From contig NZ_CH672390.1 of assembly GCF_000152865.1 (NCBI RefSeq), positions 2,087,468 through 2,151,467 on the forward strand: a DNA stretch of 64,000 nucleotides, read 5' to 3'. The DNA is from Erythrobacter sp. NAP1 (GTDB lineage: Bacteria > Pseudomonadota > Alphaproteobacteria > Sphingomonadales > Sphingomonadaceae). The translations under genes and the position numbers were made by a program. Below are positions 2,637 through 12,795 of this stretch, one piece after another (position 1 is the first letter of the stretch; every line of letters starts with the position of its first letter). Below the pieces are notes generated by a model. That model was given only the letters and a program-made list of their open reading frames with translations, was not told where the DNA came from and did not search any database.

Positions 2637-3962
2637 TCAGTCGTCGGTCGGAATCAAGGTCTCGATCGGTGGCTGGCCCGACGCGCGCGCGGCATAGCGT
2701 TCCGCTTCGCGCAGGACGCGCATGGCGTTGCGGCTTGAGATCAGCTCAAGCTCGACCTGCGAATAGCCGCGACGTGACAATTCGGCGAAGAGCTGCGGGT
2801 AGCCGCTGACGTCCTCGAAGCCTTCGGGGCCGGTCGGCATCCCGTCGAAATCGCCGCCAATCCCGATATATTCGACCCCGATGAGATCGCGAATGTGGTC
2901 GATATGATCGGCCATGTGGCTGATCATGGTCGGCGGCATCTCGTTCGCTGCGTCCCATTCCGCCATTGCGCGGGCGACGACGTCGGGCTGCCCGCGGAAC
3001 AGCGAATTCTGGCGGGCCAATTCAGCTTCGCGCTCGGCGAACCATTCGCGCTGTGCGTTGTTGAGGAAGCCGGGCAAACCCACCACCATTACAACCCCCC
3101 CATTGTCAGGCAGGCGCTGGAGCACGCTGTCGGGAACGTTGCGCGCATGGCCATTTACCGCGCGCACGCCCGAGTGGCTGAAGATCACCGGCACGCGCGT
3201 CACGTCGAGCGCGTCATGCATAGTTTTCTCGCTCACATGGCTGAGGTCGACCAGCATGCCCAGTCGGTTCATCTCGCGCACCACGTCCCTGCCGAAATCG
3301 GTGAGGCCGTCATGCTCGGGATCATCGGTCGCGCTGTCGGCCCATGGCGTGTTCGCGCCGTGAGTGAGCGTCATGTAGCGCGCGCCGAGGTCATACATCT
3401 GGCGAAGCACCGCGAGGCTCGACCCGATCGAGTGCCCACCTTCCATGCCCAGCATCGAAGCGATGCGCCCCTCGGCAATCGCGTTCTCGATATCGTCGGC
3501 GGTCTCGGCGAAGGCTAGCTCGCCGGGATAGCGCGCGATCAGACGCTTCATCACGTCGATCTGCTCCATCGTCATCTGCACCGCCTGCGGCTCGGGCAGG
3601 CTCGCTGGCACGTAGACCGACCAGTACTGCGCGCCCACGCGCCCTTCGGCGAGGCGGGCAATGTCGGTGTGCATCGGGTTTCCATCGACTTCCGGTCCGG
3701 TGTCGGTGGTATCGGCGAAGTCGAACGTGTTGATCTGATTGTCGAAGCGGCGGCGCAGCTGGATGGGCACGTCGTTGTGCCCGTCAAACACCGGCGCAAT
3801 TGCGAGCGCTGCCTCGGCGGCTTCGAGCGCCATGTCGTTCTCGATCACGGGAGCGATGTCCTCGGCAACGCTGCCTTCGACATCCTGAGCTTGGGCGGGC
3901 GCGCTCCAGATAAAGGCGATGGCAGCGCAGGCGGCGACGTGGTTAAGCGCTTTGTGTTGCAT
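2637..3962 (-). CDS. Secreted membrane dipeptidase (peptidase M19)
   Basis: 441 residues with a Sec signal peptide (cut near APAQAQ, residue 25-26). The zinc dipeptidase layout of the renal dipeptidase family is visible: DGHNDVP (about residue 60, the HxD zinc pair), MEGGHS (about 172, bridging Glu), MVDLSHVSEKT (about 237) and IFSHSG (about 259), and the late IGGDFDG motif. It should hydrolyse dipeptides, including D-residue-containing ones, in the periplasm. It ends next to the 2441 gene (convergent) and is divergent from the cupin operon. Confidence 0.92.
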   Translation of the reverse strand: MQHKALNHVAACAAIAFIWSAPAQAQDVEGSVAEDIAPVIENDMALEAAEAALAIAPVFDGHNDVPIQLRRRFDNQINTFDFADTTDTGPEVDGNPMHTDIARLAEGRVGAQYWSVYVPASLPEPQAVQMTMEQIDVMKRLIARYPGELAFAETADDIENAIAEGRIASMLGMEGGHSIGSSLAVLRQMYDLGARYMTLTHGANTPWADSATDDPEHDGLTDFGRDVVREMNRLGMLVDLSHVSEKTMHDALDVTRVPVIFSHSGVRAVNGHARNVPDSVLQRLPDNGGVVMVVGLPGFLNNAQREWFAEREAELARQNSLFRGQPDVVARAMAEWDAANEMPPTMISHMADHIDHIRDLIGVEYIGIGGDFDGMPTGPEGFEDVSGYPQLFAELSRRGYSQVELELISSRNAMRVLREAERYAARASGQPPIETLIPTDD

Positions 3963-4012
3963 GAGGCGTAAAACTCCCGATACTTGTGCGCTTCCTTGAG
4001 GGGCGCAAACTC

Positions 4013-4483
4013 ATGACACAGGCGAATAGCGCGGACGCGCTGATCGAACAATTGCAGATGCAGCCGCATCCCGAGGGCGGGTGGTACGCAGAGACGTGGC
4101 GCGCCGATAGCGATGGCTCAGGCCGCGCGCGAGGCACGGCGATCCACTTCTTGCTAAAAGCGGGAGAGGCCTCGCACTGGCACCGCGTCGATGCAGACGA
4201 GATGTGGTTGTGGCAGGGCGGCGACCCGCTTGAACTGGGCATTGCAGGCGGTGACGAAGGGCCTGCGCACTGGCTGCGATTGGGCAGCGACGTGGCGGGC
4301 GGTGAGAAGCTGCAAGGCCTTGTCCCCACGGGTGCATGGCAAGCCGCGCGCCCGGTCGAAGGTCCGGCGGGCTATGCGCTCGTCTCCTGCGTCGTCGTGC
4401 CCGGTTTCGAGTTCGCAGGCTTCGAGCTTGCGCCGCCCGGATGGGCTCCCGGCCAAGAGCTCGACAAGGAGGCGCGCGCATGA
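4013..4483 (+). CDS. DUF985 cupin domain protein
   Basis: 156-residue single-domain cupin of the DUF985 (Cupin_5) type: HPEGGWYAETWR near the start, TAIHFLLKAGEASHWHRVDADEMW in the metal-site strand, and a closing VVPGFEFAGFELA. The His-x-His pair in HWHR and the following Glu are the likely metal ligands. Substrate unknown. GTG at 3986 gives a longer frame, but ATG at 4013 starts where the family begins and has GAGGGG upstream. Its stop overlaps the next start, so it is in an operon with the DoxX-like and DUF3253 genes. Confidence 0.85.
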   Translation: MTQANSADALIEQLQMQPHPEGGWYAETWRADSDGSGRARGTAIHFLLKAGEASHWHRVDADEMWLWQGGDPLELGIAGGDEGPAHWLRLGSDVAGGEKLQGLVPTGAWQAARPVEGPAGYALVSCVVVPGFEFAGFELAPPGWAPGQELDKEARA

Positions 4484-4920
4484 TCATGGGTTTCATCAAG
4501 GCGCTCGCCCGCATCATCCTCGCCGCGTTCTATGCCTTTGCGGGCTACATGCACATCGTGAAGCCCGAGCCGTTCCTTGCGATCATGCCAGAAATGATCC
4601 CTTATCCCGAACAGATCGTGTTCTGGACCGGGATTGCTGAAATCCTTGGCGCGATTGCGCTGATCCAGCCGTTCAATGCACGCCTGAGGCGTATCGGCGG
4701 GATCGGTCTTGCGCTTTACGCGCTGTTCGTGTGGCCCGCCAACATCAACCACTTCGCGATGGACATGGCGCGCGCTGATGGGGGCTTGGGCCTCGAATAC
4801 CACATCCCGCGCATGATCGCGCAGCCGATCATCATTCTGTGGGCGCTGTGGGTCGGCGATGTGCGGATACCGCACCGCAAGGACCTGCCTTGGCGCCGCC
4901 GCAAATATGAGAAGAAATAG
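4480..4920 (+). CDS. DoxX-like integral membrane protein
   Basis: 146 residues with four predicted membrane helices (about 8-25, 48-65, 72-92, 108-125). The N-terminal helix followed by FAGYMHIVKPEPFLAIMP and later WTGIAEILGAIAL is the DoxX-like (DoxX_2) signature. The role of these proteins is generally unclear; some act in redox or oxidative stress handling. ATG at 4480 overlaps the cupin stop (ATGA) and is preceded by AAGGAGG; a longer frame from 4336 is a shadow of the cupin gene. Confidence 0.8.
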   Translation: MIMGFIKALARIILAAFYAFAGYMHIVKPEPFLAIMPEMIPYPEQIVFWTGIAEILGAIALIQPFNARLRRIGGIGLALYALFVWPANINHFAMDMARADGGLGLEYHIPRMIAQPIIILWALWVGDVRIPHRKDLPWRRRKYEKK

Positions 4921-5167
4921 CGAAGCCGCGGCAGCGATCCGAACACTGCTGAGCCAAAGGCGCAAAGTAGCGACGGTCTGCCCCAGCGAAGCCGCGCGCC
5001 TGATCGCTGGTCCCGGCGGAGAATGGCGCGCGCTGATGGAGCCGGTTCACGCAGCAGTCGATGCGATGCACGAAGCGGGCGAAATCACTCTGAGCTGGAA
5101 AGGCAAACGGCTCGCCCGGCGCAGCGGTGCTTATCGCATCGCATTGCCCGGCGAGCCGCCTGAATAA
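4907..5167 (+). CDS. DUF3253 domain protein
   Basis: 86 residues matching DUF3253: IRTLLSQR near the start, TVCPSEAAR (29-37), WRALMEPV and a C-terminal GEITLSWKGKRLARRSGAYRI. The pattern resembles a small winged-helix fold; function unknown. It starts at ATG 4907 inside the DoxX-like gene (14-base overlap), so translational coupling is likely. Third gene of the cupin operon. Confidence 0.8.
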   Translation: MRRNSEAAAAIRTLLSQRRKVATVCPSEAARLIAGPGGEWRALMEPVHAAVDAMHEAGEITLSWKGKRLARRSGAYRIALPGEPPE

Positions 5168-5183
5168 GAAGCGAAGACGCGTC

Positions 5184-5435
5184 TTAGCTGAGGTGCTTCG
5201 AAACAGCAGCCGTCATCTTGAACATCGAGATCTGGTCGTTGCCGATCACCGCGCCAAGCTTCGCGTCGGGATTGATCTGACGCTTGTCCTTCGAATCTTG
5301 AAGGTCATTCGCCTTGATGTATTCCCACACCTTCGAGGTGACCTGTGCGCGGGTCATCGGACCCTTGCCGACCACGTTTTCCAGTTCGCCTGAAAGGTTC
5401 ACTGGTTTCTGCAGTGCGTTGGTTTTGCCAGCCAT
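5184..5435 (-). CDS. SWIB/MDM2 domain protein
   Basis: 83-residue basic protein consisting of one SWIB domain: LSGELENVVGKGPMTRAQVTSKVWEYIKANDLQD, then KRQINPDAKLGAVIG and MFKMTAAVSKHL. SWIB domains are rare in bacteria; stand-alone copies occur in chlamydiae and many proteobacteria, with proposed links to chromatin-like DNA binding. GGGAGAACAACC precedes the ATG at 5435. It lies 27 bases after the PEBP gene on the same strand and is likely co-transcribed. Confidence 0.9.
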   Translation of the reverse strand: MAGKTNALQKPVNLSGELENVVGKGPMTRAQVTSKVWEYIKANDLQDSKDKRQINPDAKLGAVIGNDQISMFKMTAAVSKHLS

Positions 5436-5462
5436 GGTTGTTCTCCCTAATATTTTGGCAGG

Positions 5463-6053
5463 TTATTCGAAATCGTCGTCGTCAATGAAACCGTCATCCG
5501 CCTCAATCCCGGTGAACGGTGCATAGAGCACGGCGCAGCCGGTTATGAAGCCCTTGATGGCGGCCATCACTTCTTCGCGGCTTGCCCCTGGCATGATGGT
5601 CAGCGGCAGGTCGGTCGCGAAAATCTGAAATACATAGTGGCGCGTCTCTCCGACCGGCGGGTCGGGCAGCAGCCATTCGGAATTGCCAAAGGCGTTCTTG
5701 CCGGTGCGAGGCGGCACTTCGCCTTCAAGCAGCTTGCCGCGCTGTCCGGCCAAGCCCCAGACGACCCAGTGGCACGCAGGCTCTGCGCTGTCTGAGGAGG
5801 CATCTTCGACGATGACGATCAATTCCTGCGAACCCGGAGGCGGCGCGGACCATTCCAGCGGGGGCGCAACCGCGTCTTCTTCCTTCGCGGTGAAGCATGG
5901 GTCGAGTTCGTCGCCCGACTTGAAGGCCGGGCTGGTCAGGGCAAAGCCGCCGCGCTCAAGCGTCTTGGCATCGCCCAGGCTTGCGATCGCAAGTCCGGCG
6001 TGGCGCGCTGCAGGCGGCAATTTGGCGGTCAGCCAATCAGGCAGATCGGTCAT
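5463..6053 (-). CDS. YbhB/YbcL family Raf kinase inhibitor-like (PEBP) protein
   Basis: 196 residues with phosphatidylethanolamine-binding protein hallmarks of the bacterial type: LTSPAFKSGDELDPCFT (about 38-54), PPLEWSAPPPGSQELIVIVED (about 62-84), CHWVVWGLAG (about 92-101) and a late RHYVFQIFATDLPL. No signal peptide, so probably cytoplasmic. Biological ligand unknown; YbhB-type proteins bind small anionic ligands. First gene of a two-gene unit with the SWIB protein. Confidence 0.9.
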   Translation of the reverse strand: MTDLPDWLTAKLPPAARHAGLAIASLGDAKTLERGGFALTSPAFKSGDELDPCFTAKEEDAVAPPLEWSAPPPGSQELIVIVEDASSDSAEPACHWVVWGLAGQRGKLLEGEVPPRTGKNAFGNSEWLLPDPPVGETRHYVFQIFATDLPLTIMPGASREEVMAAIKGFITGCAVLYAPFTGIEADDGFIDDDDFE

Positions 6054-9779: not shown

Positions 9780-10355
9780 TTACTGCGGCATCAGCACGCC
9801 GTCGATCACGTGGATCAGGCCGTTCGATGCTTCAACGTCGGTTGCGGTGACGTTCACGGTCGCGCCGGTGGCATCGGTGAGAACAACGCCGCCATCGACT
9901 AGCGTTGCAGTCAGTTCGCCGCCACCAAGCGTCGGGACCGGGTGGCCTTCTTCGCCAGCTGCTTCGATCATGCCGATCAGCGTTGCGGCATCAACGCGGC
10001 CTTCGACCACGTGGTACTGCAGAATGGCGCCGAGCGTTTCGGTGTCGTTGGTGGTGAGCTCTTCGACGGTGCCTTCGGGCAGTGCGCCGAATGCGTCGTT
10101 GGTCGGTGCGAACACGGTCAGCGGGCCTTCACCCGAAAGCGCGTCACCAAGACCGGCTGCGGTAACGGCTGCAACGAGGGTCGAGAAGGTGGCTTCGTCG
10201 CCCTGTGCAACTTCAACGATGGTGCCCGGAGCGGTTGCTTCTTCGGCCATGGCGGTTTCGTCGGCCATCATCGAATCTTCGGTTTCGGTTTCCGAAGCAC
10301 AGGCGGCAAGAGCAAGCGCGGTGCCTGCAACGAGGCTAAGCTTGATGAATTTCAT
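9780..10355 (-). CDS. Fasciclin (FAS1) domain lipoprotein
   Basis: 191 residues. Signal peptide ends with ALAAC (lipobox); a Glu/Thr-rich acidic linker (about 22-45) precedes one FAS1 domain: FSTLVAAVTAAGLGDALSGE, GPLTVFAPTNDAFGALP, LGAILQYHVVEGRV and the closing ATDVEASNGLIHVIDGVLMP. FAS1 proteins act in cell adhesion or surface interactions. Monocistronic, with a terminator right after the gene. Confidence 0.93.
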   Translation of the reverse strand: MKFIKLSLVAGTALALAACASETETEDSMMADETAMAEEATAPGTIVEVAQGDEATFSTLVAAVTAAGLGDALSGEGPLTVFAPTNDAFGALPEGTVEELTTNDTETLGAILQYHVVEGRVDAATLIGMIEAAGEEGHPVPTLGGGELTATLVDGGVVLTDATGATVNVTATDVEASNGLIHVIDGVLMPQ

Positions 10356-10507
10356 TGGGATCTTCCTCTAGTGATTGAGGTGGGGGAGTGATTTACAAAG
10401 CCGCAAGAATTGTGGCGGCTCTGTGGCAAGATACGCATGAAGGCTTCGGTTGGATCCAAATTCTTTTGAGATCATTTGGAATATGACACACAATCCGGAA
10501 AGCTTCG

Positions 10508-11746
10508 ATGACCTTTACCCCTGACCGCAAGGCTGGTCTTGACCGCCTTGCCGAATTCGCGCCCCGATCCGGCAGCGCCTATGCCAGCAACCGCAATTAC
10601 GATGATGGCGTTCCCGAAGACGGGATGCTTTCCAACGTCTCGCAATTGTCGCCCTGGCTCCACGCCGGCCTTTTGAGCGAACGCGAGGTTATCCTCGCCG
10701 CGCTGAACGAGCATGGCCCCGGCAAGGCGGAAAAGTTCATCGCCGAAGTTTTCTGGCGGGTTTACTTCAAGGGCTACCTCGAACAGCGCCCGAGCGTATG
10801 GGACGCCTACAAACAGGGCCGCGACGGCGCTCTGATCGCGGTCGAGAACAATTCGGGCCTCGCCAAGGTGTACGAGGAAGCCGTCGCAGGCCGCACCGGG
10901 ATCGAGGCATTCGACCAGTGGGTGCGCGAGCTGGTGCAGACCGGCTACCTCCACAACCACGCGCGCATGTGGTTTGCGAGCGTCTGGATATTTACGCTAA
11001 AGCTCGACTGGCAACTTGGCGCAGACTTCTTCCTGCGGCACCTGATGGACGGCGATGCGGCCTCGAACACGCTTTCGTGGCGCTGGGTCGCGGGGCTCCA
11101 TACCAAAGGCAAGAACTACGCCGCGCGCGCATCCAACATCAAACGCTACACCGAGCGCCGCGATGGTGGGCCACTGTCTGCCGAAGGGCTGAACGAAGAC
11201 CCCGAACCGCTGAGCGAGGAGACCGAGCACCAGCGCCAGAAGCTCGACCTGCCGGAAGCACCGCCCGAAGACGCGTTCGACGCGCCCTTCGCGCTGCTCT
11301 TGCACGACGAAGCGGCGAGCCATGTGCCGCTAGACCTGCCCAAGGCTCCTGCTGCGGTGATTGGTGCAGCCCGCCCGAAGGCTCGCTCTACCGGAGAAGT
11401 GGGCGAGCTTGCGGCGAAGTTCGCTACGGGCGCGGTCGAAAACGGTGCGGCCGAGGCGGCGAGCGCGTTCGACTGCCCTGCCCTCACTTGGGAAGCAGGT
11501 GCAAATCTCAAGGACCTGATCAGCGAGGTTGGAGTGGAGCGGCTCGCGGTGCCTTACCTTCCGACCGGATGGACCAGAGATGCGTTGATGCCAGGCATCG
11601 CGCCGCTCGCCGAAGCGGGCAGCACCATCACCCTGCTAGGCGACCTCGACCGCCTGACCTGGCCACACGCGCGCGCCGGGTTTTTCCGGGTGAAGAAGGA
11701 AATTCCCGGCATTCTCGGCGAATTGGGGCTGGCGCCCGGTGACTAG
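10508..11746 (+). CDS. Photolyase/cryptochrome-type FAD protein with rearranged domains
   Basis: 412 residues. Residues about 20-225 are the helical FAD-binding half of photolyases: NVSQLSPWLHAGLLSEREV, EVFWRVYFKGYLEQRP, TGYLHNHARMWFAS, LMDGDAASNTLSWRWVAGLH and the N-x-x-RYT segment. The alpha/beta antenna domain that normally precedes it is absent from the N-terminus. Instead residues about 255-412 look like an alpha/beta domain with photolyase-like pieces (LKDLISEVGVERLAV, YLPTGWTRDAL, LGDLDRLTWP, FFRVKKEIPGIL). DNA repair or light sensing is plausible. Start ATG 10508 has GGAAAG upstream. Confidence 0.8.
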   Translation: MTFTPDRKAGLDRLAEFAPRSGSAYASNRNYDDGVPEDGMLSNVSQLSPWLHAGLLSEREVILAALNEHGPGKAEKFIAEVFWRVYFKGYLEQRPSVWDAYKQGRDGALIAVENNSGLAKVYEEAVAGRTGIEAFDQWVRELVQTGYLHNHARMWFASVWIFTLKLDWQLGADFFLRHLMDGDAASNTLSWRWVAGLHTKGKNYAARASNIKRYTERRDGGPLSAEGLNEDPEPLSEETEHQRQKLDLPEAPPEDAFDAPFALLLHDEAASHVPLDLPKAPAAVIGAARPKARSTGEVGELAAKFATGAVENGAAEAASAFDCPALTWEAGANLKDLISEVGVERLAVPYLPTGWTRDALMPGIAPLAEAGSTITLLGDLDRLTWPHARAGFFRVKKEIPGILGELGLAPGD

Positions 11747-11826: not shown

Positions 11827-12795
11827 ATGGCTGGTGGACTGGGATTGGCGCTTAGCGGTGGCGGCGCAAAGGGCGCGTATCAAGTCGGCGTGCTGGATGA
11901 ATTGATCCGCGTAAAAGGCGTTGATTTCGAAACGGTGGTCGGCACATCGACCGGCGCGATCCAAGCGGCGGGTGTGGCGCAGGACACGATCCCCGAACTC
12001 GTCGACTTCTGGACCGGGCTCAAGGGGCCCGACGACATCTACAAGAGCCGGGGCGGCCCGATCTGGGCGGTCATCACCGGCAAAAACTCGGTCTACAGCA
12101 CCGGGCCATTGCGCAAGCTCTTGAACGATGCCTTCAAGGACGAGGACATTCGCGCAACCGGCAAGAACCTGCGTCTCGCGGTCGTCAACATCACCACCGG
12201 CGATCTCATCACCGTCGCTGAGAACGCCAACAACATCGCCGACTGGGTCTATGCAAGCTCGGCCCAGCCACCCTTCTTCCCGCCCTTCGAAACGCGCGAT
12301 GCGGGCGGCAAGCTGGAACAGTGGGTCGATGGCGGGGTGAGGGACATCACGCCTTATGATTCCGCCATCCGGCTGCGCCCGCGCGCGATCCTGGTGGTCC
12401 GCGCCGAAGCGCCCTTGCCCAAGACGCACAACGAATATGACAGCATCATCGACATCGGCCTTCGCTCGGTCGAGCTGCTGACGCGAGAGGTTGCCGACAG
12501 CGACCTTGGCAGCATCGAGCTGATCAACGACCTGCTGCGCGCCGAGATGGAACAGCGCCGCGTGCTCGAAGGCCTGCCCCTTTCCCCCGAGCAGGTCGAA
12601 CAGGCGATGGCTCCGATCAAGGCGCGGATCGACCAGTATTTCCTGATCCCGACCATGGTGCTTCAGCCGCCGACCGACCTTTACGAAACGCTCGACTTCA
12701 TTCCGGAGCTTATCGCCCAGAATATCGAGCGCGGCCGCAACGAAGTGCGCTCGCGCTGGAGCGAGATCGCCGCGTTTCTAGGGGTGCCGGAATAG
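11827..12795 (+). CDS. Patatin-like phospholipase
   Basis: 322 residues with the patatin Ser/Asp dyad: oxyanion loop LSGGGAKGAYQVG (residues 9-21), nucleophile elbow GTSTG (about 40-44) and the catalytic Asp in VDGGVRD (about 168). Expected to be an acyl hydrolase acting on phospholipids or related esters. No signal peptide, so cytoplasmic or inner-membrane associated. AAGGGGAGCGAAACGC precedes the ATG. Stands alone between the photolyase gene and the convergent DUF6491 gene. Confidence 0.92.
   Translation: MAGGLGLALSGGGAKGAYQVGVLDELIRVKGVDFETVVGTSTGAIQAAGVAQDTIPELVDFWTGLKGPDDIYKSRGGPIWAVITGKNSVYSTGPLRKLLNDAFKDEDIRATGKNLRLAVVNITTGDLITVAENANNIADWVYASSAQPPFFPPFETRDAGGKLEQWVDGGVRDITPYDSAIRLRPRAILVVRAEAPLPKTHNEYDSIIDIGLRSVELLTREVADSDLGSIELINDLLRAEMEQRRVLEGLPLSPEQVEQAMAPIKARIDQYFLIPTMVLQPPTDLYETLDFIPELIAQNIERGRNEVRSRWSEIAAFLGVPE

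Follow-up and report, generated by a model that had tools for sequence, protein, structure and literature searches.

A probable NewPHL-type photolyase with inverted domain order encoded in Erythrobacter sp. NAP1

Results

The gene and its surroundings

The window, by which we mean the whole analyzed stretch of 64,000 nucleotides, lies in the genome of Erythrobacter sp. NAP1 (3.27 Mb, two contigs). It contains an intact, complete open reading frame with an ATG start that encodes a protein of 412 amino acids. The features of the gene and its product are as follows.

10466..10494, + strand: upstream match to a sigma-70-like promoter (9/12 positions, by consensus only)
10508..11746, + strand: complete ORF, probable NewPHL-type photolyase with inverted domain order (from end-to-end homologues)
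10508..11206, + strand: FAD-binding, all-helical catalytic half, residues 1-233 (Z 15.5 to 1iqr; phmmer to 1tez, E 3e-17)
10736..11164, + strand: Pfam FAD_binding_7 (PF03441), residues 77-219, profile positions 1-140 of 203 (E 4.2e-23)
10745..10759, + strand: E80..W83-R84, aligned to the EL-WRE stretch of class I photolyases (108/108 members; 1tez alignment)
10955..10972, + strand: N150-H-A-R153-M154-W155, aligned to HN-RM of class I photolyases (N, R, and M in 108/108)
11048..11086, + strand: D181..N187..W191-R-W193, FAD site motif (D181, N187, W191, and W193 in 108/108)
11207..11284, + strand: linker, residues 234-259, mostly coil in the AlphaFold model
11285..11728, + strand: C-terminal alpha/beta domain ("Z-domain"), residues 260-407, best explained as a relocated antenna-type domain (models, structure and profile comparison)

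The gene is adjoined by a divergent gene for a fasciclin-domain protein (9780-10355, - strand) and by a gene for a patatin-like protein (11827-12795, + strand). Among the best 80 of at least 590 loci that encode a relative, the fasciclin neighbor is kept in only four and the patatin neighbor in only two, so there is no conserved partner that would speak for an operon. Matches to the LexA box at up to one mismatch were not in excess in the window (25 found, 25 expected), and none falls between 8440 and 11994.

The same genome has two further photolyase-family genes (C1:1319792-1321150, - strand, and C1:1645367-1646032, + strand), one of them classical and the other PhrB-like, the latter with PF04244 and, as judged by eye, Fe-S-type cysteines. 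With the gene studied here the genome therefore encodes at least three kinds of photolyase. The sole match in the genome to PF00875, the family of the usual antenna domain, is the separate classical photolyase.

The catalytic half

Residues 5-200 of the protein were aligned by phmmer to residues 207-400 of the photolyase 1tez (E 3e-17), and structure comparison matched residues 1-233 to the helical half of photolyases, the best being 1iqr (Z 15.5, rmsd 2.5, 212 residues aligned). When the whole model was compared, 48 of the 50 rows listed ended by residue 241. By phmmer, Pfam, and structure comparison alike the helical half comes first in the protein, with no alpha/beta domain in front of it, and PF00875 had no match in the 412 residues. 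An earlier note made from the sequence had placed the FAD-binding half of a photolyase at the N-terminus and had regarded the N-terminal alpha/beta half as missing, and on both counts we agree with it.

Conservation was examined in a family alignment of 108 members, made up of the 28 sequences of alignment A1 and the best 80 of at least 590 named loci. Residues E80, W83, R84, W138, N150, R153, M154, W160, D181, N187, W191, and W193 are invariant in all 108 members, and W168 is kept in 107. By alignment with class I photolyases, E80 and W83 correspond to the lesion-facing Glu and Trp, N187 to the Asn facing the flavin, and W191 to the inner Trp of the relay that carries the electron; W191 and W168 stand where class I has its two inner relay tryptophans. 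These roles are those of the residues in E. coli and Anacystis photolyase. The position of the outermost relay Trp is occupied by V112 here and by L or V in 78 of the 108 members, unlike in class I photolyases, which keep this third Trp (1tez alignment). As the only Cys of the protein is at position 323, it carries no Fe-S cluster. According to PMC12083526, NewPHLs keep an Asn near the flavin.

The match to PF03441 stops at profile position 140 of 203, and the AlphaFold model shows a helix at residues 208-214 and then coil as far as residue 253. On these grounds the window protein has either lost the usual C-terminal end of its FAD half or keeps it in shortened form.

Fold of the C-terminal domain

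AlphaFold modeled the whole protein from 28 sequences with a pLDDT of 95.5 and a pTM of 0.93, and residues 250-412 alone from 98 sequences with a pLDDT of 96.2. In the models the C-terminal domain is of the alpha/beta type, in which helices and five short strands alternate, and so has the Rossmann-like fold that the earlier note had expected there.

Searches with the domain on its own gave little. No family in Pfam or NCBIfam matched residues 246-412 up to E 10, and an hmmsearch of PDB sequences with the C-terminal domain (alignment A2) returned 11 sequences up to E 10, with no photolyases among them. Foldseek against the PDB found nothing below E 0.001, the best match being 2iel (E 0.009) and the first photolyase, 3umv, standing at rank 7 (E 0.072).

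The structure comparison of the domain re-examined the first 1000 Foldseek hits, of which 50 rows were shown. Photolyases and cryptochromes make up 17 of these 50 rows (Z 5.4-7.6) and align over 140-153 of 163 residues, the last helices included, vs. at most 134 residues for the other families in the rows shown. In four of the photolyase rows the alignment does not leave the N-terminal domain of the matched chain: 1owl (Z 7.1, rmsd 3.6, 145 residues aligned), 3umv (Z 6.6, 150 aligned), 4cdn (Z 6.3, 148 aligned), and 6kx8 (Z 6.0, 140 aligned). In the remaining 13 the aligned part of the chain extends to residues 262-291, beyond the N-terminal domain. The highest Z of all belonged to 3fg9, a universal stress protein (Z 8.5, 115 aligned). 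A Z below 8 may reflect a common arrangement only, so the structure rows alone are no proof of antenna identity.

Inverted and split relatives

Inverted proteins with a Fe-S-type cysteine pattern, as judged by eye, are encoded on Deinococcus plasmids, and a further inverted set is encoded in genomes that belong to the same phylum as Frigoribacterium (Actinomycetota). The C-terminal alpha/beta domain of these Deinococcus and Actinomycetota proteins is homologous to the antenna domain.

The two halves were also found as separate genes. On a plasmid of Deinococcus sp. QL22 (locus L184), genes at 896-1669 and 1666-2187, which overlap by 4 bases, encode a 257-residue FAD half and, as a 173-residue "hypothetical protein", the alpha/beta half, an arrangement to be compared with phr4/phr5 of marine Synechococcus. 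A second pair, in the alphaproteobacterial genome G162 (locus L042, 1402-2256 and 965-1405, both on the - strand), likewise overlaps by 4 bases and encodes a 284-residue FAD half with Fe-S-type cysteines and a 146-residue alpha/beta half with a GTG start. A plasmid of Persicobacter psychrovividus (locus L141) carries an ORF for an inverted-type photolyase at 2926-4101 and, directly after it, an ORF at 4034-5557 whose product by eye resembles a classical-order photolyase or cryptochrome.

Profile comparison of the C-terminal domain with antenna domains

Compared directly by hhalign, the C-terminal domain of the window family matched the classical antenna domains weakly (P 0.019-0.055). The alignment covers residues 281-351, LKDLISEVGVERLAV included, in the antenna register. 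Its score was reached four times in 120 column shuffles and nine times in 120 block shuffles; this direct match was unconvincing against the shuffles and was dropped as a sequence proof. Against the Actinomycetota group P was 0.071, and of 120 shuffles of each kind, 6 by column and 32 by block scored as well.

A bridge profile was made of five sequences, namely the C-terminal domains of three inverted Deinococcus proteins and the separate alpha/beta ORFs of the two split pairs. It matched the classical antenna domains over 132 columns (probability 95.3, E 2.2e-8) and the Actinomycetota C-terminal domains at E 1.9e-40, and the control match to the classical FAD half had an E of 0.42. The window-family domain in turn matched the bridge over 130 columns, with residues 260-401 in order (P 1e-4, probability 57.8; P 2.9e-4 and probability 40.5 with insertions removed), and as good a score was obtained by none of 100 column shuffles and one of 100 block shuffles. 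This alignment was unguided, and in it the four stretches that the earlier note had named do occur in the order of the antenna domain.

Control profiles matched the window-family domain over much shorter lengths: 30 columns for stress proteins (P 0.024; 21 of 25 loci entered) and 65 columns for PPAT (P 0.071; 20 of 25 loci entered, with one excluded for a stop codon). The classical antenna domains themselves reach a P of 1.5e-4 with stress proteins, over 76 columns, and a P of about 1e-4 alone is therefore not specific. What counts for antenna homology is the length of the alignment and the chain of matches, and on these the C-terminal domain is best explained, from profiles and models, as a relocated antenna domain that is linked to the classical ones through the bridge family, its direct match being weak. 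The profile link of the domain to the antenna family was weak in the direct comparison (P 0.019) and stronger by way of the bridge (P 1e-4). Of the circular permutation proposed in the earlier note, the move of an antenna-type domain to the C-terminus is supported; the permutation is not a pure one, as the FAD half has a C-terminal end that is reduced or missing.

Distribution and phylogeny

Of the 147 genomes of the order, 20 encode an end-to-end relative, the NAP1 genome counted, with a stop codon listed within the match in one (G131); the other 76 matching genomes of the order had the FAD half or part thereof only. In the scan of the phylum, 12 of 299 genomes (that of NAP1 included) had such a relative, one of which matched only to residue 334. 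At least 590 stretches of named genomes encode a relative, and the best 80 of these, which were kept, belong by their titles to Alphaproteobacteria, with some Gammaproteobacteria and some Actinomycetota. The closest relatives among the matches listed are from Erythrobacter and Porphyrobacter, at up to 67% identity. Two scans of viral contigs confirmed no relative.

Trees of the FAD half were built without class II, animal-type, and plant members. The initial sample was later superseded; a 72% identity filter had reduced its 108 family members to 68 and its 28 classical sequences to 19, and two classical sequences had been added. In the following tree the family was reduced, mostly at random, to 33 rows, and two loci labeled PhrB (L035 and L039) fell in the classical group and were excluded from the later tree. 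That later tree used 13 PF04244 proteins as the PhrB type and left out 4 of 17 PhrB, 16 of 33 family, and 5 of 20 classical rows. The window protein was placed in a NewPHL-like group with support of 100/99 (family samples of 33 and of 17 rows), and Roseobacteraceae relatives, among the matches listed, clustered with it; the proteins of Dinoroseobacter shibae and Methylobacterium mesophilicum, which mark the NewPHL cluster, were absent from the best 80 named loci. In the tree with the 13 PhrB-type proteins the classical and NewPHL-like groups were joined with support of 95/91, and as a consequence domain order changes twice on that tree; a single change sufficed in 3% of 200 bootstrap trees. 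A single clade of all 38 inverted rows was not rejected (p-AU 0.438).

Discussion

The gene very probably encodes a NewPHL-type (short photolyase-like) CPD photolyase, in which a helical FAD half is followed by a relocated alpha/beta domain of the antenna type. The N-terminal helical half would bind FAD and the UV lesion and, in blue or near-UV light, the reduced FAD would donate an electron, upon which the cyclobutane pyrimidine dimer would split and the electron return. By analogy, the substrate is most likely a CPD in single-stranded DNA. We infer both that this particular protein repairs DNA and the docking of its C-terminal domain, which most likely closes the FAD site. The abstract of Emmerich 2020 reportedly has the C-terminal domain seal the FAD site. 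The literature describes CPD repair activity and a preference for single-stranded DNA in relatives.

The alternative that bears most on the C-terminal domain is that it is another Rossmann-like domain, of the universal-stress-protein or nucleotidyltransferase type, which was recruited independently behind the catalytic half. That 3fg9 heads the structure list, that the direct antenna match reaches only P 0.019, and that the hhalign probability to the bridge is only 57.8 all speak for such a recruitment. We nevertheless consider it unlikely: among the 50 rows shown, the 17 photolyases and cryptochromes align over 140-153 residues and no other family over more than 134, and the bridge links the full length of the domain to the antenna whereas the stress-protein and PPAT profiles cover 30 and 65 columns only.

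The protein might instead be a photoreceptor, a bacterial cryptochrome, and not a repair enzyme; cryptochromes belong to the same fold family, and the genome has both a classical photolyase and a PhrB-like protein besides. None of the 108 relatives differs at the lesion-facing E80, W83, N150, or M154, however, and we regard a photoreceptor as quite improbable. The absence of the usual N-terminal half could also be read as the mark of a truncated or decayed photolyase gene, or of an assembly artifact, but the chance of this is close to nil: the same end-to-end architecture recurs in the 20 genomes of the order and in the best 80 of at least 590 named loci, with the active-site residues conserved, and these conserved relatives refute it.

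A NewPHL-type photolyase thus being the preferred reading, the protein can be set beside the systems already known. It shares with class I CPD photolyases, such as E. coli PhrB and the Anacystis enzyme, the fold of the FAD half, at 24-30% identity in structure alignments; in class I the alpha/beta domain is in front and the C-terminal end is longer, whereas here the domain is behind and the end is shorter. The SPL of Xu et al. 2021 is reportedly an inverted photolyase with Fe-S-type cysteines. The window protein has the same inverted order as the Fe-S-type photolyases (that SPL, and Phr4/Phr5 and Phr6 of marine cyanobacteria), but it has one Cys (323) where the Fe-S type has four, and it belongs to a separate group in the FAD-half tree.

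By their description, the NewPHLs are closest. As described in PMC9426592 and PMC13274461, NewPHL (Emmerich et al., 2020) has the FAD half first and an extra C-terminal domain, lacks Fe-S cysteines, and has a conserved Asn at the flavin (N187 here, 108/108 in the window family); by description we found no defining difference. Phr7 of Prochlorococcus, as described in PMC9426592, similarly combines an N-terminal FAD domain with a C-terminal "Z-domain" and has no Fe-S cysteines; it is from another phylum. The same papers also name NewPHLs/SPLs with an "inverted domain topology" (PMC13274461), describe photolyases with a "reverse domain order" (PMC9426592), and already list a NewPHL of Erythrobacter litoralis, Q2N8F4, with A8LJA9 and M7YZC8 as further accessions (PMC13274461). 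The window protein is therefore nothing unusual within a class already described, its gene being chromosomal, and its inverted topology is not new.

The domain order bears on the history of the family. Short photolyases are said, in PMC9649867, to lack the alpha/beta domain, and a tree rooted on them to need the fewest changes. The relatives examined here suggest that the domain is carried at the other end rather than lacking. It is possible, although less likely than not, that the "short" photolyases, proposed as primitive ancestors, carry the domain behind the FAD half or in a neighboring gene, that the halves were once separate genes that fused either way, that the order changed more than once, and that the inverted order is at least as old as the textbook order. 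The split gene pairs suggest how both domain orders could have arisen. If the domain has moved and is not absent, simplicity is no argument for short photolyases being ancestral, and the window protein, as a further member of a known group, helps to show that this half has moved and is not missing.
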